A stretch of DNA of 64,000 nucleotides, taken from assembly GCA_003971905.1 (NCBI GenBank), contig RSEE01000010.1, positions 496,001-560,000 of the forward strand, given 5' to 3'. This DNA is from Moniliella sp. 'wahieum'. Its lineage: Eukaryota; Basidiomycota; Moniliellomycetes; Moniliellales; Moniliellaceae. Position numbers and translations under genes: made by a program. The notes under the pieces are model-generated. The model saw nothing but the letters and a program-made list of their open reading frames with translations. It did no database searches and was not told where the DNA came from. Each line of letters begins with the position of its first letter. Position 1 is the first letter of the stretch. Of the stretch, positions 4,791 to 63,472 are shown one piece after another.

Positions 4791-5548
4791 GAAGCCCATC
4801 TCACATCCTGCTGTGTATATCTGCGCTCCCCCCTCCCAGCGACAAAAACAATACCGCATGAAAGGACTCAATCCGGTAAAGAAATACGAAACATGACGTT
4901 GTGATACGTTGGAGAAGATAAGGCGTCTTCGTTTTAAACGAAGCAACAAGGGACGATCATTGGCTCTGCCCCACTCGTCAGATGTCGAGGGAAAAGCACA
5001 ATTCCACCATATATACAAAACAACGAGGTTTGTAGTTGTAACACAACCGCGTCCTGCAGAAGGATTTGCATGGGTGAGAATTCAAACCGGACCTCACAGC
5101 GGTTGGCGGTGGGACGGTGGACGGGAATGGTGGCTACGGTGGCTATGGTGAGCCAGTACGAAATCCGGGCTGTAATAGGTCTGTGGTGGTCTCCGAGATG
5201 CGATGTTGGTGCTTAAACGATAATTTCCCAACCCGTCCGCTCAAGAAATGGAGGCGATACAACTTTCTCTCAGGCAAAAGTCGTACCCTTATTAATATTG
5301 ACGTATCCATAGTATAATTCCGAAGAACGCACATTTCTGTCCTTCTTCGTCCCTGAGTTCCCCATGTTTAATTCACAACCATTCCCACGATCCATCAACG
5401 CCCCTGGCGCCATTGGCCCTTGCATGCCCGGTAAAGCTGAGGTGACATGATGAAAAGAAGACAAAGACCAGAGGAGAGAGAGCTATACTATAATAGAAGT
5501 GTGGAGGGGTTTGCCTATACTGTGTGTGGATTGACGAAGGTGGAAACT

Positions 5549-5725
5549 GTCACAGTCGGGGCTAAGGCGAGGGAGACCAGGATCGGACTAGGCCAAGGGG
5601 TGTAGCAATCGTTCGTGGGGAAGAAGCAAGAACAGAGGACATGGTGCGAAGTGGAAGGAACAGGGAAGGAGCGAGACGCTCGAGACGAAGAAATTGGAAA
5701 TGGGAGCGAGATCAGCCAAACTATG
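5549..5725 (+). repeat. Dispersed ~178-bp repeat, copy A
   Basis: This segment, from GTCACAGTCG to GCCAAACTATG, recurs in the same orientation at 23588-23766. By eye, close to nine in ten bases match, and most differences are single-base gaps. Neither copy has a convincing open frame. It could be a short non-autonomous transposon, a solo fragment of a larger element, or a structured RNA gene. Flanking target-site duplications were not obvious. Confidence 0.8.
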
Positions 5726-5894
5726 ACAGAAACGCCGATGCATTGACAAAGACAGGAAGTGAAGAGACAGATTGATCTTCGTGTGGGAAAGTGAGCGCGC
5801 AGCGCGTATTATACTCAGTACTCCGACAGTCAGGCCTCAGGCCTCAGGGCCTCACCTGCCAGTCAGGCTCGCCGTACGGCCCCCGTCTTCGCTC

Positions 5895-19724: not shown

Positions 19725-21423
19725 ATGTCCTCCCACCCCCCCGAAGACGTTATCCCCGTGCACGACTCCCTCGGTGAGATCTACTCTGCGGAGCGCCTGC
19801 CCCGCGAGCAGGCTCGCTGGCACGCCCTCCACAATGCCTTCCAAGCCCAGTTTGGAACCCGCCTCGACTTTGTCGCCCGTGCCCCTGGCCGCGTCAATAT
19901 GATCGGCGAGCACGTCGACCACCAGGGCTTCTCCGTCTTGCCGGCCTCGATTGAGATGGATATTCTCATGGCCACCCACGTCGAGTGGAGCAAGAATGTC
20001 ACCCCGCCCAACCAGACGACTGAGTTTGTACTCCACAATGTCACCCCGCGTTTGAGGGTACCTCCTTTACCACTACGTGGAAAGAAGGCCTGCCGGACGT
20101 GCAGCTCCACAACTCTGGTCCCGACCGTTGGGCCAACTACTTTAAAGTCGCCCTCCACGGCCTTCTGCCTCACCTCCCCGCCGCGACGACCGCAGCAACG
20201 ACACCCAAGCCTGTGCGGGTCAGCATATTGGTCGATGGCACGGTCCCCCCCGAGTCGAGCTTGTCCAGTTCGGCAGCCATGACCACAGTAAGCAGCATCT
20301 TGATTCTTGAGGCGCTGGGCGTGCGCCAGTTTATCGATCGCAAAGAGATGGCCAATGTGGCCATCGAGTCGGAACGTCTGGTGGGCGTAAGCTCGGGTGG
20401 CATGGACCAGTCGGCCTCCATTTTTGGCCGGCCCGGGTACTTGCTGCACATTGGATTTGTACCCCACCTCTGGATCCACCCGATTCTTGCCCCGCATGGT
20501 CCGCCCAAGACGGAGACGTACAAGTGGCTGATCGCCAACACACTTGTCGTTTCCGACAAGAAGGTGTCGGGCCCAATCCACTACAATCTTCGTACCGCTG
20601 AACTTCGCATGTCAACGCGGGCGCTGGGCAAAGCGCTAGGCATTGCACCCACCCCTACTAACTATACTCTCAACGGTATGTTGGGCGACTACTTCAAGCT
20701 CCATCCAGTTGATAAGCTATGGTACGTTACTTCGGACGAGCGGGCCGAGTGGCTCAAGGAAGCCGGTGAGGAAGGTGTGCGCATCAAGTTTTTCGAATCG
20801 CTCGCGCTCTCCCACTTGCCTAAGGAGCCTGTGACTCGCGCGGAGGCCGAGACTTTGACCGGGTATGAAGGTGAGGCGTTCACCAAAGAGTTCCTCACTA
20901 CCTTCCTGTCAAGGCAGAAAAGTTTGACCTTTTCAAGCGCACCAAGCACGTATTTGACGAGGCGTATCGCACTCCGCTTTGTTACACTCCTCCAAGTGGC
21001 AGCGTCGCGGGCTGAGAACGATGAGATCCCCGAGGCTGATGCCGCGGTGCTTTACAAGCAACTGGGTGAGCTAATCAACCAATCCCACTACTCGATGCGT
21101 GACTACTATGAGGCTTCCTGCCCTGAACTTGAGGAGGACACAACGATTGCGCGCAAAGCAGGTGCCCTTGGTGCCCGTTTGACAGGTACGTCCTTTCTCC
21201 TCTGCCATGAAGAAGAGACAATGTGACTGATTTATGGAATAGGTGCGGGGGGGAGGATCAACCGTCATCCTGGTACCTGGGAGCAAGGTGCTGCTGTAAC
21301 CAAGGCATGACCGCGCAGTACTTTGCTGTCCGCCACCCGGAGCTGGATCAAAACGGTTTGAACGATGCTTTGCTTCTCACGGAACCGGCGGGCGGAGCAT
21401 GCGTGTACAAGCAGACGATCTAA
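19725..21423 (+). CDS. GAL1: Galactokinase, or galactokinase-like GHMP-kinase protein
   Basis: This would phosphorylate galactose at C1 in the Leloir pathway. From MSSHPPEDVIPVHDSLGEIY the sequence carries the galactokinase signature RAPGRVNMIGEHVDHQGF, the GHMP loop region VPPESSLSSSAAM, the VGVSSGGMDQSASIFG segment with the catalytic Asp, ANTLVVSDK, and near the end YFAVRHPEL and a C-terminal EPAGGACVYKQTI. A final intron lies at about 21186-21240. Frame breaks are repaired by single bases at the T run 20051-20053, CC at 20905-20906, near 20963, and the G run 21247-21253. One oddity survives the indel noise: the loop consensus G-x-G-L-S-S-S-A reads E-S-S-L-S-S-S-A, with both glycines changed by in-frame substitutions. 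The protein might bind nucleotide poorly and act as a sensor. No GAL7 or GAL10 was seen nearby. Confidence 0.85.
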
Positions 21424-21760
21424 CATGATCTGATCTCTGATTGCTCCCGGACATGGGTTTTGCTTAGTTGCTGTCGCCCCACCCGCACTCGAGGCTATGT
21501 CCTATTGGAGCGGCAGTCAGTTGTGCTGCATCCTCGCCAAGTGCACTTGAATGAACGAACAGCTGGGCGTTCAGAGTGAATCTAAACGCTGAAGATATTA
21601 CTGATGCCAATATTATGATGCAAAAGATGCGCATGATTAGTGATGAGTGATGGTCGATGGACGTAGATGCGGATGGCGGCGCTGCGAGTCCGGAATACGT
21701 CGGAGTTGAAACGACGTGAGTCTATTTCTTGGCCATCTGCCACCATCTCCCGTAGGCACG
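21424..21760. other. Short intergenic spacer
   Basis: Separates galactokinase and the MFS gene, both on the plus strand. No motif was recognised. Confidence 0.5.
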
Positions 21761-23501
21761 ATGCAAGAGGGACAGCGGTTGCTTGCCAGAGTCGAAGCTG
21801 GCATTGAGGAGGAGGGCGAAGTGCATCCTCCCATCCCCGCCTCAAGTCCAGAGAGTGAGCCAACGCTCCCGCCCATGCGGAAACTGGCACCCATTCTGGT
21901 GGCACTATGGGTGCCGGCCCTGGCGAGCGGGGTGGAGGGCACAGTGGTCACAACGCTTTTGGAGAGTGTGGGGAGTACCTTCCGCTCGGCAGAGAATGCG
22001 TCATGGCTCGGAACTGCCTTTCTTCTGACGCTGTGCTGCGGCACACCCCTCTCGTCTCGAGTATGCGAGAGCCTGGGGCGTAGGTCCACGCTCCTTTTCT
22101 CCGAGGGACTGTTTACCTTTGCTACATTTCTGTGTGGGATCTCCCCCAGTATGGGAGCCTTGATTGCGGCCCGTGCTCTCGCTGGGTTGGGTGCCGCAGG
22201 ATTGGTGACAACGGTGAGCATTGTCATGTCCGATTTGGTACCGATGCGGCAACGAGCCTGGTACCAAGGGTTGACCAACCTTTGGTTCTCGGCCGGGCTG
22301 GGGCTGGGGGGGCCCTTAGGTGGATGGGCCGCTGACACGGTCGGATGGCAAGCTGGTTTTCTTTTGCAAGTTCCCTTGCTGTTGTTGGCCGTAGGCCTGA
22401 CCTGGGTCTATGTACCCGAGGGCTCAGCTACTCGGACCAAATGGGAGTGGAGCCGGGTCGACTTGATGGGTACGGTGCTCTTGTTCTGTGGGATCGCCAT
22501 TCCCCTCACGTCCCTTAGCATTATGGGTACGCAGGATATGGGGGTTTCGAATGTACGCGCCTGGGGTGGTCTCCTTCTGGGTGGGGTGTGCATCTTGGCT
22601 TTCTACCTGAATGAGAAACGACCTTCGTTTCCCATTCTTCCCCTCTCTTTACTCCATCGCCCATCGAGCCTCAACGGAATGGCGCATGCCATCTCTAGTT
22701 TGTCCCTGTGTACTGCCGTCTTTGCGTTCTTGTATTCGGTGCCGGATTTGTACCAAGCTGTACTGGGCCAGTGCATCGCGTGCGGGCATGCTGATGCTTC
22801 CCTACTCGATCTGCATCTCTCTCGGTTCCATCATCGCCGGTGCTCACATCAGAACCCACGGCACGTTTAGGCGCTTCACTCTGTACTCAAGCTATGGCAT
22901 GCTGGCTTCCTCTGCCCTTTTCCTCGGCACCACTGTCTATCTTTCCTCTCATCCTCCGGTGCCCGGAACGGAATATGTGCTCTGTTTGGGCGCGATGCCA
23001 GTGAGTTTTGGATTCGCAGCGACGGTGACAACCAACCTGATTGCCTTGTTGCACGGGGTTCCTCGTACCTCCATTCCCCTTGCCACCGGAATGTCTTACC
23101 TCTTTCGCCAGGCGGGCCAAGTGTTTGGGGTAGCTTGGGCCGGGGCTATGGTTCAATCACTGCTGCGGTTTCTCTTACCGGGCGCACTTTCCTACCCCGA
23201 TCCGCAGGGCAATGTGCTTTCCCCCGACGAACGGACACGATGGGCGCAACGGTTACGACACGAACCAACCCGGCTGCCTTCGCTTCCTTCTCACCTGGTG
23301 GGCCCGGCAAGAGCCGCGTACGCCCGAGCTCAAGTGTCGGTTTACCTGTTGGTTTTCCTTGGTGTGGCTGTAGCTACACTTGCCAACAGCCAACTGGACG
23401 AGACGGGTTTTGCTCAGCCCACAGCGTCTCAAACGCCAGAGGTTGGGAACGAGACGCCGAACCCGCAGTCACGTTATGGTGCAACGGAGCAAGAACCTTG
23501 A
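21761..23501 (+). CDS. Major facilitator transporter, DHA2/Vba-like (about 14 helices)
   Basis: A drug/proton antiporter-family membrane transporter. After a hydrophilic head (MQEGQRLLARVEAG) comes the first helix region LAPILVALWVPALASGVEGT, then WLGTAFLLTLCCGTPLSSRV, the loop motif ESLGRRSTLL (motif A-like), ALAGLGAAGLVTTVSIVMSD, and GLGGPLGGWAADTVGWQAGF, the motif C-like stretch of antiporters. Further helices run to VYLLVFLGVAVATLA before a polar tail ending EQEP. The pattern resembles fungal vacuolar basic-amino-acid transporters and related multidrug exporters. One frame break at GGG 22765-22767 is restored by one G (VLGASASRAGMLMLPY). The start at 21761 is preferred; an in-frame ATG at 21716 is possible. 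The substrate cannot be predicted, and adjacency to galactokinase does not imply sugar transport. Confidence 0.82.
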
Positions 23502-23587
23502 GTAGCACACATGATCTTACCGTTGTCGAATGAAGACGAAGACTTCGATCATCTTTGCCTGCAATAGGTGTACCGATGAGGCTCGTT

Positions 23588-23766
23588 GTCACAGTCGCGG
23601 GGCTAAGGCGAGGGAAACCAGAATCGGGACTAGGCCAAGGGGTTGTAGCAATTTGTGGGGAAGAAGCAGGAGCAGAGGACATGACGCGAAGTGGAAGCAA
23701 CAGGGAAGGAGCGAGACGCTCGAGACGAAGAATTTGGCAAATGGGAGCGAGATCAGCCAAACTATG
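23588..23766 (+). repeat. Dispersed ~178-bp repeat, copy B
   Basis: Same orientation and near-full-length match to 5549-5725. It lies just after the MFS gene and upstream, by position, of tRNA-Ser, a common place for small transposons. This copy has fewer apparent single-base losses than copy A. Confidence 0.8.
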
Positions 23767-23906
23767 GCACTCGTCTTGTGATACTGGGAATGTGGCACAA
23801 GATAGTGGGATGTGGTGAGGCCTAGAGAGGCTTTGGGTGACCGAACCGGATGGCTTAAGATGGCAGATGGGTGGGCAGAGGGAAAATATTGTTGGGGAAT
23901 AAAAAA

Positions 23907-24013
23907 CGACACCTGTGAGATTCGAACTCACGCCCTCAGAGAGGATTCGCTGGCCCTTGAAGCAAGGTGCTACCTATAGCAGGCGAACGGGGTAACCACT
24001 GCCCTAAAGTGTC
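23907..24013 (-). tRNA. tRNA-Ser (GCT) with intron
   Basis: On the minus strand the acceptor GACACTT pairs with AGGTGTC, with discriminator G. The anticodon stem TTCGC/GCGAA encloses loop CTGCTA-A, giving anticodon GCT. A 25-nt intron follows position 37. The long variable arm (CCTC...GAGG) marks a class II tRNA, and the T arm is GTGAG-TTCGAAT-CTCAC. A run of six T follows immediately (23901-23906), a Pol III terminator. Confidence 0.95.
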
Positions 24014-30672: not shown

Positions 30673-30756
30673 GGGTTCGTGGTGTAGTGGTATCATGCCT
30701 CTTTAGGGTTTCAAAACTCGTAGAGGTGGTCCTCGGTTCGATCCCGGGCGGACCCC
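30673..30756 (+). tRNA. tRNA-Pro (AGG) with a 12-nt intron
   Basis: Acceptor GGGTTCG pairs with CGGACCC (one G-U pair), discriminator C. The D arm GTGTAGTGGTATCAT is typical of Pro/Gly tRNAs. Anticodon stem CCTCT/AGAGG encloses T-T-AGG-G, then a 12-nt intron after position 37, then T. The T arm is CTCGG-TTCGATC-CCGGG. Six T follow directly. Confidence 0.95.
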
Positions 30757-50956: not shown

Positions 50957-53408
50957 ATGTCCGACATTGACTTTGACTCGGACTACGACGACCATGGCGC
51001 GCGCGTGGCCGACATCTTCTCCTTTATGATCCATTCGCAGGGCATGGGCCCACCCTCGGCTCCGCGCATCCCCATGCCCCCGCCTGGCTTCTTCCCTCCC
51101 CCTGGCGTGCCCTTTATCATGGGTGGCGGCGTCCTGCGCCGTAGCGAGCGTGACGAAGCCGAGGACGACCCGCCCGGATTTGACTTCTTGGATGATGAGG
51201 ACGAAGGCGCAGAACGCCCCTATTATCCTATCTTTGATGACGTTGAGTATGAACAGAGTGAACCGGAAGATGACGACGACTTTCACCGCCGGTATGCCAC
51301 GTTCGGACCGCACTTTATGGGTGCGGGCTGGGACTTTGTTCCCGACGAGCCAGTGCGCCCGATGCCCCCCCGGGTCACCCGGCCCCTGCCGGCCGGCGTG
51401 CATGCGCGCTTCAATGGCGACTTTGGCAAGGTAACTATCCCTTTTTTTCTCTTGCTCGTCTGCACTTGCATGGTATTGATAAGACGCGTCTTGCGCCCAG
51501 ACTCCGCATCGCCCCCCGTGGACCAGCAACTTTTACCTAGACCTAGTGCAGGCGAATCCTGCTATCGCGCACACCTTCCCGCGTCTGTTTCCATTGATGG
51601 GCAAGACAGCATCAGGGAACCTAGATGTCGCCTCGTGGCTAAAAAAGACCCAGCCCTCCGCCAGCTCCAGGCCTTCACCGACGGCGGACTCGGGCAGATG
51701 GGATGTTGCCGATGTGATGCGCTCCTCCTTTGGTGGGCTGGGCAACCCAGCAGAGCGAGTGTATCAGGCCCGTGCTTCTTGTCCTGGAGTGGGGCAAGGC
51801 TGTGGCCGGCCTGACATGTCGACGTATGTTCCCAATGCGTTTGGGGCCGACGTGGCCATGTACCTCGGCTCGCCCTACGTGTCCCAATATTCGGCCGATG
51901 GCTCGCTGTTGGTAACGTGCACACGGGACTTTGCTGCGCACCTCTACGCGACCCAGCCGGGGTGCAGTCCGCCTCTGCACGCGTGGAATGGCAGTCGCAA
52001 AATTGAACTGTCCGAGTGGATGGACACGCATGCCCCCCGGCTGGAACGCGGCTCTCAGTTAACGTCGATGGATTTGCGCAAGACATTTGCCACATCCGAG
52101 CATTACTCCTGGACCTTGACCGACGCCGATCTGTCGGTCAAGAACGATTGGTTGATCTACAGCTCCCTGACTCCGTATGTGCATTTGGCGCCTGTTGCCC
52201 AGTATGTGCACCCGCAGGCACCGCCCGCCGACGCGTTTTCCCCCTTTGACGACGCGGATCCGCCCGAGTACTCGGCCAAAAAGTGGTCCTTGTACTCCTC
52301 GGCGGATCAGGGATCCAAACGGGCGGGCACGGAGGAGAACGACGGTGTGAACGAAGAGGTGGTGCTCAACCTCGGATCCTCTACCGACGATCCGTACACT
52401 TCGGACGGGGCGCTGTTCAGCGTCCGCTTTTCCCGCGACGGACGAGACATTGTGGCCGGGGCACGAGCGGGCCGAATCCATGTGTACGACATTGAGGCAC
52501 GAAAGAAGTCCTTCACCATCAAAGGGCACGGACGGACGTGAATACTGTCGCGTTTGCCGACCCGGCCGGCTCGCACGTTATTCTCAGTGGAGGGGACGAC
52601 CACGTGGTCAAGATCTGGGACCGACGTTCCATCCAAAACAACAAGTCGATGGGCGTACTGTATGGGCACACGGGTGGGATTACCCACGTGTCACCCAAGG
52701 GGGATGGACGATACGCTGTTTCGAACGGCAAGGACCACAATGCCAAGCTGTGGGATCTGCGGATGCTCAGCAATGACTCTGCCTCTGCTTCAACGGCCGG
52801 GACTGCGAGCGGGGGCAGGAGTCGGCCAGGCGGACTCCCGAGTGGAAAGAAGGATGGATCGGTGGTGACATACACTGGGCACACAGTTTCCCAGACCCTG
52901 ATCCGTTGCAATTTCTCGCCCATTGCGACAACAGGGTCGCGGTACATTTATTCGGGTTCGTCGGATGGCTTCATTTATGTACGTTTTTTCCCCAGGCGCC
53001 TTAACGGGTTAGTGGTGTGGTCGTGGTGTGGTCGTTGGCTGACAGGAGCATGCGGGGGAACAGATCTGGGCGTTGGATGGGCGTTTGGTCGAGACGATTG
53101 ACCGATCACAGGCGGCGACGATGCTTCCCGAAAAGTCCTTTTTGACCTCTGACCCCCGTGCGATCGATCCGTCGGGGGCGGAACGAGTGCCGCATGGCAA
53201 CCTGCGTTGCTCGGCCCATTGCGAACATCACCGGGCGGGGTGGGTGGTGGTGCGGGATGTGTCGTGGCACCCGTATGAGCCGGCGCTGATGTCGGCGACG
53301 ATCTCGCATGGCCAGCACCTGGCCAAGCACGAGTGGAAGGGCTTTGGCAAGTCGGGGCTGACGAGCCTGGAAGACTTTGCGGAGAAGACGCGGCGGGAGA
53401 CGATGTAA
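50957..53408 (+). CDS. DCAF11/WDR23-like WD40 protein (CUL4-DDB1 substrate receptor)
   Basis: WDR23-type proteins recruit substrates to CUL4-DDB1 ubiquitin ligases. The head is acidic with Pro-rich patches (MSDIDFDSDYDDHGARVADI), then NGDFGK | TPHRPPWTSNFYLDLVQANP across a 70-nt intron (51431-51500). The WD repeats follow: VSQYSADGSLLVTCTRDFAA, VRFSRDGRDIVAGARAGRIH, DVNTVAFADPAGSHVILSGG, KDHNAKLWDLRML and TYTGHTVSQTLIRCNFSPIA with TTGSRYIYSGSSDGFIY. A second intron (52979-53045, 67 nt) leads to EHAGEQIWALDGRLVETID and VVVRDVSWHPYEPALMSATI. The 'H-T-V-x-x-T-L-I-R-C-x-F-S-P' and 'V-R-D-V-S-W-H-P' blocks are characteristic of this subfamily. Frame changes occur near 51610 and 52535. An acidic head and Pro-rich linker are usual for fungal members. 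The ligase role is inferred from the family. Confidence 0.87.
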
Positions 53409-53881: not shown

Positions 53882-56493
53882 ATGAGCAGCACCAACCCCT
53901 TCATGCCCGCCTCGGCGCCGCCGGCGAGCAACCCCTTTGGTGCCCCGCCCACCGACGCCCCTGTCGCCGCCAATCCCAATCCATTCGCAGCGCCCCTTCC
54001 GCCGTCTGCGCCCGCCGCCCAAGGCTCCCTGGGTCCTGGCAGCAACCCATTCGCCGCCGCCCCCGCCCTCCGCCTCCCTCTCCACCGACCTGGCTGGGCT
54101 TAGCTTCGGCGCGGAGCCCCAGATGGACGTATTCACTCCCACACCGCGCCTGTACTAGCCCAACCGTCTTCCCCGCTGTCTGCCCCGTCTGGTGATGCGT
54201 TTGGCTTTGCCTCGGCTGCCGCTGCCCAGGGACAACAGGCCTTCTCGCCTCCGTCCGCTGCAGGTACCAACCCCTTTGCCCAGGCTTCTCAGCCTGAAGC
54301 AGGCAGTTCCATGTTTGCAGCGTCACCTTTTGATCTGCAGCAGTCCCAGCCCCAGCCCCAGCCGCCCGTACATACCTCGCCATTTGGAGAGGCACCTCAG
54401 CTGGATACCGCGTTGCCATTTGGTGCCTCCCCCGTGGCAGCTCCATCTCCGTTCGCCATTTCGAATCATCCGACCCCGGGGCTGGGTGCACCCCTTCCCA
54501 TCCCCGGCGTGCCCACCGCTGCACCCGAGAAGGACGAGCCGCCACCGAACGATCATGGGGTTCAGTGGGACGTGAAGAGGGTTTTGTTCCAGCAGCCTGA
54601 TGGAAGTGTAACGGACCGGCAAGTGGTCCAGCAGAACGGGCTGGGCGCTACGCCGCTCATTGCGCTGGTGAATGTCCTCCTCTTGCGCGGGGAGGTGAGC
54701 CTTACGCCTCCCAACCGACCCGCTGTGGACCATGATTACCTCTCGTCCTTGGTGGGCGAGTACTTGCTGGGCCGCGAAGATCCTACTCCCGACGCCCCCG
54801 GTTCTCTCGAGGACGCACTCAGTGTACTTCCGTACCTTTCGCGCCGTGTTACCCTCAACGCCAGCCTGACCGATGCCCGTGCTTTCCCTCCCCCTCCACC
54901 CAGCCAAACTGGCTCCGAGACTCAGGTCGCCCGCATTCACCGTGGCGTTGTCGCTCTTTTCCGCCTGGCCGGGGTGGGCTTGGTACATGGTGGCCTGCTC
55001 GATGCGACAAATCAAGCGGCCATCGACGCTCTCCGTCTTACCGCTACGGCGGATGTGGATCGCTTGAGCAGGTTTGTTGCGCAGGCCGATACGACGGCGC
55101 GGCAAGTTTCCGGTCAGGGCTTGGCGCAGCTGGCTTCCGCCTTTGCTTCTACCGCGGGCAAGGCACCCTCTGTGGTCAAGCTCAACGAGGCAGACGAACG
55201 AGCTGCTCGGGCGGCGATCGCGATGCAAACGTTTTTGAAGACACTCGATCTTGCGCCCGCCTACTTACCCGCTGCTTCTTCTACGACCGCAACCGGTTCT
55301 GCTTCGGATTCTGTGGGTGACCATGGTCTGTCCTGGGCCGCTCTGTTTGCACTGGGAGATATTGTGCGGGGCTCCTTATCAAGCCAAGCAAGTGGCCTAG
55401 CGGCGCTGTACCGCGCAGGACGGATGGACGTGATCTACGTGCCGACACAGGAGCAACTGTCCAAACACGACGCAGCTGCTGGGCACCGAGTCCGAAGGAC
55501 TTCCTGGCCTCCTCGTCCTTGCCAACCAACAGCTTTGGCGGCCGGATGACGATCCGGTTTGGCTGGGAGTAAGTGAGCCGTCGGACCCGTTGGGATCGGG
55601 TCCGGCAGGCGGTGGAAAAGGCACTGCGCTGCCCGTACCGGCGCCTGTGGCCTTTGATGGCCGTCTCCATCCGCTCCCGACAATGGAGCGACGCGCTTGG
55701 CTGCTCCGACTCAAACGCGTGGGCGTTGCTGCGCCGACGCGCGGGGCGGAAAAGCACAGTGCCGGCAGCATCGGATCAGCAACCGGGCGGCGCAAATGTA
55801 TCGATGGACCAAACGGACAGCGAGTAGGTCCTCTTCCCCCGTTGCAGATCTGGTCGTGTTGGGTGTACTAACTTTGTCCTGCTTCTTAGCTTTGCCCTTG
55901 CCCTGCATCTCCAGCAACAGGAGAACCGCCGTGCGGCACAGAGGCGCTATCACCAACGGCATCAAGCGCCGCGCGTCGCTCCTACCCCCGAGCCGATCGG
56001 GGGTATTGGGCACGAATGGTACGACCCATATGGCAATGCGGGATCGGGCGTGGACGGGGATAAGCGTGGGATGAAGGACCTGCTCCGCTTCCCCGGCTTG
56101 GGCAAGAAAAAGAAGCGCACCGATGCGGAGAAGTATGCGCCGGGCGCGCCACGCTTGTCTGTTCCCGAGCCGCGCGAGACTGTGGATGCCGGGTGGGATT
56201 CGGACAACGAGTACGCCCATGGCCATGGCTCGCGTGCACGCACGCCGAATGAGATGGCACGGGACGACTACAGTCCCCCGCCCGGCCAGGACTTTGCAGC
56301 TGGTCCGACGGATGAGGAGGTGGTTGAGATGCGGGATGGGAAAAAGGGAGGCAAGATGGGGCGGTGGATCGCCAAGGCCAAGCATGCGGTTGTAGCGGCC
56401 CTGGCTTCTCTTTCTGCCAACGCAAATGCGTACCCGCCCTGCCCTGTCTATCATTCTCTTCCTGTGCCCTGTCTATCGTTCCCTTCCCTTTGA
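53882..56493 (+). CDS. MINDY-fold ubiquitin-protease homologue lacking catalytic residues, with NPF motifs and C-terminal UIM
   Basis: MINDY enzymes trim K48-linked polyubiquitin. The head has five Asn-Pro-Phe motifs (SSTNPFMP, SNPFGAPP, NPNPFAAP, GSNPFAAA, GTNPFAQA), ligands of EH domains in endocytic adaptors. The MINDY core starts HGVQWDVKRVLF and QQNGLGATPLIALVNVLLLR, where active relatives read Q-N-E-N-G-P-C-P-L: the catalytic Cys position is Thr (codon 54650-54652). EDALSVLPYLSRRVTLNASL, LVHGGLLD and LLVLANQQLW follow, but the F-R-N-N-H-F block reads YRAGRM, so the His is lost too. A 66-nt intron (55824-55889) with branch site CTAAC joins TDS to DFALALHLQQQENRRAAQRR, a good ubiquitin-interacting helix. 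A charged tail with GLGKKKKR ends at 56493. Frame breaks occur near 54070, 54130, 55480 and 55620-55720; the core containing the Thr is one unbroken frame. Confidence 0.8.
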
Positions 56494-63371: not shown

Positions 63372-63472
63372 GTTCTATTAGCTCAGTTGGCTAGAGCGTC
63401 CGACTGTTAAAGACGGCCCACACTTGTCTATTCGACATCGGGAGGTCGTTGGTTCGAGCCCAACATGGAACG
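63372..63472 (+). tRNA. tRNA-Asn (GTT) with a 27-nt intron
   Basis: Acceptor GTTCTAT pairs with ATGGAAC (one U-G), discriminator G. The D arm is AGCTCAGTTGGCTAGAGCG. Anticodon stem TCCGA/TCGGG encloses CT-GTT-A, with a 27-nt intron after position 37 and then A. The T arm is GTTGG-TTCGAGC-CCAAC. Five T follow at 63474-63478. Confidence 0.95.

Follow-up and report, generated by a model that had tools for sequence, protein, structure and literature searches.

The window, i.e. the whole 64,000-nucleotide stretch of contig RSEE01000010.1 from Moniliella sp. 'wahieum' that was analysed here, harbours a two-exon gene on its forward strand whose product combines five N-terminal NPF motifs, a MINDY deubiquitinase core with replaced catalytic residues, a MIU-like helix behind a short intron, and a basic C-terminal tail. 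The gene is referred to as pseudo-MINDY hereafter, and its features are collected in Table 1.

Table 1. Positions of the pseudo-MINDY gene and its features within the window.
Feature	Position	Strand	Basis
Whole gene, ATG to probable stop, two exons	53882..56395	+	Four-copy DNA alignment, copy frames, coordinates
Five NPF motifs (53894-53902, 53930-53938, 53978-53986, 54044-54052, 54269-54277)	53894..54277	+	Enrichment; all five aligned in C3
In-frame TAG in the N-terminal region of the window copy, ascribed to neighbouring indels	54101..54103	+	C3 open across the matching region
Pfam MINDY_DUB match (residues 120-346 of the translation of 54206-55546)	54563..55243	+	80.4 bits (cut-off 27)
Gln at the MINDY-1 Gln131 site, kept	54632..54634	+	Alignment A1, where window and C3 both have Gln
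Thr (ACG) at the catalytic Cys137 site	54650..54652	+	ACG in each of the four copies
Gly at the Trp240 site (Leu73 pocket), within HGGLLD (54986-55003)	54992..54994	+	Alignments; intact paralogue has HGWL
Arg (CGG) at the catalytic His319 site, within YRAGRM (55409-55426)	55421..55423	+	Arg codon in all four copies
Asn at the Thr335 site, within VLANQQLW (55515-55538), read in the post-indel frame	55524..55526	+	Alignments
Intron, 66 nt	55824..55889	+	Exon borders align in four copies
MIU-like helix (D)FALALHLQQQE, Asp codon split by the intron	55890..55923	+	Single PDB match, to 5mn9_C (MIU peptide of MINDY-1)
Conserved basic segment GLGKKKKRTDAEKY	56095..56136	+	Conservation, coordinates
Conserved basic tail at the C-terminus, about EMRDGKKGGKMGRWIAKAKHAV, lacking a CaaX box	56325..56391 (start approximate)	+	Copy alignment, conservation

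Gene model, genomic copies and selection

The assembly that holds the window comprises 69.5 Mb on 223 contigs, and the pseudo-MINDY gene occurs in it four times: on the contig of the window (C10) and on C47, C3, and C45. C47 is 97.8% identical to C10 in DNA and C3 is 95.3% identical to C45, while identity between the two pairs is 72-73%. Two further regions of the window, 20000-24000 and 51500-53300, were tested and also matched these four contigs in order; C10/C47 and C3/C45 consequently have the appearance of two allele-like pairs in a genome that is duplicated or hybrid. Across the window region the two near-identical pairs lie ~16-31% apart in DNA, and an intact MINDY gene was found on a further pair of contigs only (C14 and C19).

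The reading frame of the window copy is broken up by indels, and none of the four copies is free of breaks. In the window copy, a 481-codon open frame (54104-55549) holds the MINDY core, the in-frame TAG parts NPF motifs 1-4 from this core in the common frame, and the core frame is broken just past 55462 by a single-base indel that is missing from the other three copies. C3 provides one open frame of 305 codons with NPF motifs 3-5, and a separate one of 415 codons that extends from within the core past YRAGRM and VWLG as far as the intron. The first-pass annotation had extended the gene to 56493; this end depends on a single-base indel near 56390, with the window frame as printed terminating in SFPSL, and was moved to near 56395 because C47, C3, and C45 all stop directly after KHAV. 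The intron proposed at the same time was borne out at its full length. The assembly is noisy, with 28 gap runs between C10 and C47 over 2575 aligned columns. The upstream neighbour at 51483-53101, which resembles a WD-repeat protein in a translation read by eye, is likewise split between frames.

The in-frame TAG and the frame breaks in all four copies are what a decaying pseudogene might display, and selection was gauged by comparing C10 with C3. Seven in-frame blocks, a set from which the frame-disrupted N-terminal region was omitted along with other stretches containing gaps, gave a dN/dS of 0.103 (dS 1.01, dN 0.105). Six of these blocks ranged from 0.088 to 0.120, while the C-terminal end showed zero amino-acid changes over 21 compared codons at a dS of 1.33 (one codon being a gap). 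The pseudogene reading was dropped on this evidence and is regarded as extremely improbable; furthermore, near-identical copies carry different breaks, and breaks also occur in the intact MINDY copies and in the neighbouring gene, as assembly noise would produce. Because dN/dS between the pairs is as low as ~0.10, the gene is almost certainly a maintained MINDY pseudoenzyme rather than a decaying gene.

Loss of the MINDY active site

The 447-residue part starting at 54206 matches Pfam family MINDY_DUB (PF04424) with an E-value of 1.7e-22, which upholds the MINDY assignment proposed for this gene and places the core in the 481-codon frame. A PDB sequence search with E-values up to 10 returned 11 matches, and all eight below 0.001 were MINDY-1 or MINDY-2. 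A PDB search with the 415-codon frame of C3, in which the first core segment is missing, gave eight weak and unrelated matches and no MINDY.

The pseudo-core was aligned both with MINDY-1 and with the intact MINDY that this genome encodes. The intact gene (loci L012 and L013) encodes a protein that is, as read, 36% identical to mouse MINDY-1 and agrees with it at the Gln131, Cys137, Trp240, His319, and Thr335 sites. An hhalign comparison of the pseudo-core profile with the intact paralogue (probability 98.8, E 4e-17) sets RAGRM against the His block, and the direct pairwise alignment agrees. The comparison with MINDY-1 (probability 96.0, E 4.2e-9) is limited to the first part of the core and stops before this block, alignments with vertebrate MINDY-1 misplaced it, and the MINDY-1 and paralogue comparisons put LTYHGL, which precedes it, on different stretches. 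The paralogue comparison was preferred, being longer and ending in matching flanks.

Among the features of an active enzyme, the oxyanion residue Gln131 is present in the pseudo-core, while Cys137, His319, and Thr335 are replaced and the Leu73 pocket of the distal-ubiquitin site is eroded. Within this pocket, Val210 has become Leu, Trp240 Gly, and Phe315 Tyr, and Tyr258 is lost: the site reads Val by the paralogue alignment and Ala by direct alignment with MINDY-1, and Tyr in neither. C3 agrees with the window at sites 131, 137, 210, 240, 315, and 319. The Arg codon at the His319 site is CGG in C10 and C47, with a one-base gap just before it in C47, and AGA in C3 and C45. As Thr and Arg occupy the two catalytic sites in four out of four genomic copies, sequencing or base-calling error was ruled out as the source of the changes, and the codon at the Cys site is ACG throughout. 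The first-pass annotation had reported Thr in place of the Cys and YRAGRM in place of the His block as genuine losses. These readings are confirmed, the latter with the backing of the paralogue alignments, although its list was incomplete: it left out the Thr335 site and the Leu73 pocket, and Gln131 is kept, as is visible in the QQNGLGAT segment that it quoted.

Either C137A or H319A alone abolishes the activity of MINDY-1 in the assays described by PMC4942677, as do mutations in the Leu73 pocket, and T335V causes a substantial loss of activity according to PMC8550791. Since the pseudo-core has lost sites whose mutation impairs MINDY-1, catalysis is very unlikely, and binding of a distal ubiquitin by the core is doubtful. 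Retained enzyme activity, either through an unusual active site or on another modifier, would fit the retention of Gln131 and the uniform Thr in all four copies, and some human deubiquitinases annotated as pseudoenzymes, USP53 and USP54, proved active in the work reported in PMC12037411. Nevertheless, with Arg at the His319 site, Asn at the Thr335 site, and an eroded Leu73 pocket, this alternative is considered very improbable. For the maintained pseudoenzyme, the same pocket also bears on ubiquitin reading: the residues that hold Leu73 are mostly gone and pocket mutation kills MINDY-1 activity, which casts doubt on the core itself as a reader of chains. The earlier suggestion that the protein binds chains and leaves them uncut thus stands in part, namely for a non-catalytic protein under purifying selection, while its core appears a poor candidate for the reader.

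A MIU-like helix, NPF motifs and a tail without a CaaX box

The helix behind the intron had been annotated as a fused ubiquitin-interacting motif (UIM), and this assignment was rejected. A 33-residue segment around it matched no Pfam family up to an E-value of 10, UIM included, in a search where short motifs are easily missed. Its one PDB match up to the same E-value was 5mn9_C, the MIU peptide of MINDY-1; the match is weak (E 0.06 for the whole sequence, 1.1 for the best stretch). By eye, the helix lines up with the second MIU of this peptide, TDLELAQQLQQEEY, with the Leu-Ala pair in register, and the intact paralogue has a similar helix, QTDAQLAQSLQAEEYG. This likeness to the MINDY-1 MIU and the similar helix in the paralogue make family equipment more likely than a fusion, and the motif most likely corresponds to the MIU helix usually found in MINDY-1. 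An L415A/A416G mutant of the MINDY-1 MIU pulled down less K48-ubiquitylated material in the experiments of PMC4942677. Any ubiquitin binding by the pseudo-MINDY protein would more probably rest on the MIU than on the core, and the protein probably reads ubiquitin tags rather than removing them.

NPF motifs are short and bind EH domains. All five N-terminal NPF motifs that had been noted earlier are present: shuffling the 193 N-terminal residues yielded 0.11 motifs on average, and 0 of 20,000 shuffles reached five. Their conservation is that seen in C3, a copy within the same genome. The genome also encodes EH domains, with 20 matching stretches that all lie above the cut-off. A Pfam scan of the N-terminal pieces found no domain, and consequently neither ENTH nor ANTH, and the other pieces gave MINDY_DUB only.

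MINDY members are stated to have a C-terminal prenylation site in PMC11847538, and the intact paralogue terminates in CVVM on both C14 and C19. No such CaaX box was found in C47, C3, or C45, where the stop directly follows KHAV. The tail contains KMGRWIAKAKHAV; its amphipathic moment is only marginally above that of shuffled sequences (5.9-12.5% of shuffles being as high), which makes a membrane role for the tail only a guess.

A candidate endocytic ubiquitin adaptor

Comparing the gene with known systems places it within the MINDY family and sets it apart from the members considered here. It shares the core family PF04424, the retained Gln131, and, going by the weak peptide match, a MIU-like helix after the core with MINDY-1 and MINDY-2 (FAM63A/B) and with yeast Miy1 (YPL191C), whereas the replaced Cys, His, and Thr335 sites, the eroded Leu73 pocket, the five NPF motifs, and the missing CaaX box distinguish it from all three. 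The intact MINDY of the same genome is a paralogue of the pseudo-core by the hhalign comparison and by its similar helix, but has NGPC, HGWL, FRNSH, ATD, and VWESL, no NPF in its coding frame, and a CVVM box that is the same as that of yeast Miy1. Unusual here is the presence of five conserved NPF motifs on a dead core that also lacks a CaaX box. The combination had been put forward as not known to be described, with the ubiquitin motif as one of its parts; the NPF motifs and dead core hold, the loss of the prenylation box has to be added, and the ubiquitin motif is likely the family MIU.

No orthologue was seen beyond this genome, in searches likely to overlook distant ones. The window protein alone had no match at an E-value of 0.001 in a collection of 5.8 billion proteins (7999 candidates scored), and neither had the core alone (7997 candidates scored). 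When a MINDY-1 row was included in the profile, 1453 of 7996 candidates matched, and the named ones among the 120 matches listed were all vertebrate. No relative was found in the viral contigs scanned, and the open-licence literature searched yielded no account of NPF motifs in a MINDY protein. MINDY is reported missing from Cryptococcus neoformans (PMC9599802) and confined to a few isolates among the Tremellales studied in PMC7147457.

I lean towards an epsin-like role for the protein, in which it would be recruited by EH domains and bind ubiquitin via its MIU rather than via the eroded core. Here, the five NPF motifs would recruit pseudo-MINDY to EH-domain proteins of the endocytic coat of the Ede1, Pan1, or Eps15 type, the MIU helix would bind ubiquitin attached to either cargo or coat proteins, and seating at the membrane may be aided by the conserved basic segments. 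EH-domain tethering would take the place of the prenyl anchor and the core would serve as a scaffold, not as a ubiquitin reader, leaving a dead deubiquitinase that acts like an epsin by pairing a ubiquitin-binding helix with NPF motifs. The most economical model would be such an epsin-like adaptor with EH tethering replacing the prenyl anchor. Precedents from endocytosis are alike in function only: the epsins Ent1/2 and Yap1801/2 bring NPF motifs together with ubiquitin binding, with UIMs paired with NPF motifs in the epsins, five NPF motifs in the Yap180s, and Ede1 recruited through EH-NPF contacts, as described in PMC11451990. Fungal Pal1 likewise bears NPF motifs (PMC10672141). With neither ENTH nor ANTH in the scanned pieces and a MIU-like helix in place of a UIM, the window protein is not a member of these families.

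Alternatively, the protein could be a dead MINDY that regulates ubiquitin signalling or its active paralogue, for instance as a competitor for K48 chains or partners. The NPF motifs would then be incidental or serve a purpose away from the endocytic coat. An intact paralogue does exist in the same genome, and the core and tail are strongly constrained, as are the NPF sites. Yeast offers a parallel in YGL082W (Miy2/Miy3), a MINDY homologue for which PMC4942677 reports no detected deubiquitinase activity beside an active one; it differs in keeping its catalytic residues (PMC4942677) and a CVIM box (PMC11847538), both of which are lost in the window gene. The eroded distal-ubiquitin pocket would weaken competition for chains by the core, however, and the conservation of five NPF motifs in C3, in a genome with EH domains, also speaks against incidental motifs. 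A regulatory role of this kind is rather unlikely, and the epsin-like reader is preferred.

A more far-reaching version of the epsin-like reader is put forward tentatively, as a possibility that falls short of an even chance: the gene may represent a new class of endocytic ubiquitin adaptor derived from a duplicated deubiquitinase, which would have abandoned catalysis and the distal-ubiquitin site, swapped its lipid anchor for NPF-based EH tethering, and kept the MIU. At the plasma membrane, the same tags might then be read by the pseudoenzyme and trimmed by its prenylated active paralogue. In the experiments given in PMC11847538, yeast Miy1 needed its prenylation site to influence pheromone signalling, while mutating the catalytic residues did not significantly change this effect. 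To our knowledge, few cellular roles have been assigned to MINDY enzymes. If the proposal is true, a natural MINDY without catalysis or anchor, with the MIU kept and NPF motifs gained, would separate reading from cutting and give the endocytic coat a ubiquitin reader of the MIU type.

Several minor features accompany these loci. Rfam places tRNA genes at 23907-24013 (reverse strand) and 63372-63472 (forward strand) of the window, each exceeding 100 nt and therefore probably intron-bearing, while ARAGORN in bacterial mode places a tRNA-Lys at 30673-30756 (forward strand); no tRNA is common to both. Repeats of ~300 bp flank the intact MINDY locus (L013, 1-306 and 4201-4501) and have many genomic copies elsewhere. 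A dispersed element of ~183 bp at 23587-23769 of the window is ~90% identical to at least 36 further full-length places (40 of 399 candidates scored), including 5548-5728 of the window itself. This element is absent from the sister contig C47, where the flanking matches overlap by 5 bases, like a target-site duplication; it lies near a tRNA gene and may be a solo LTR.
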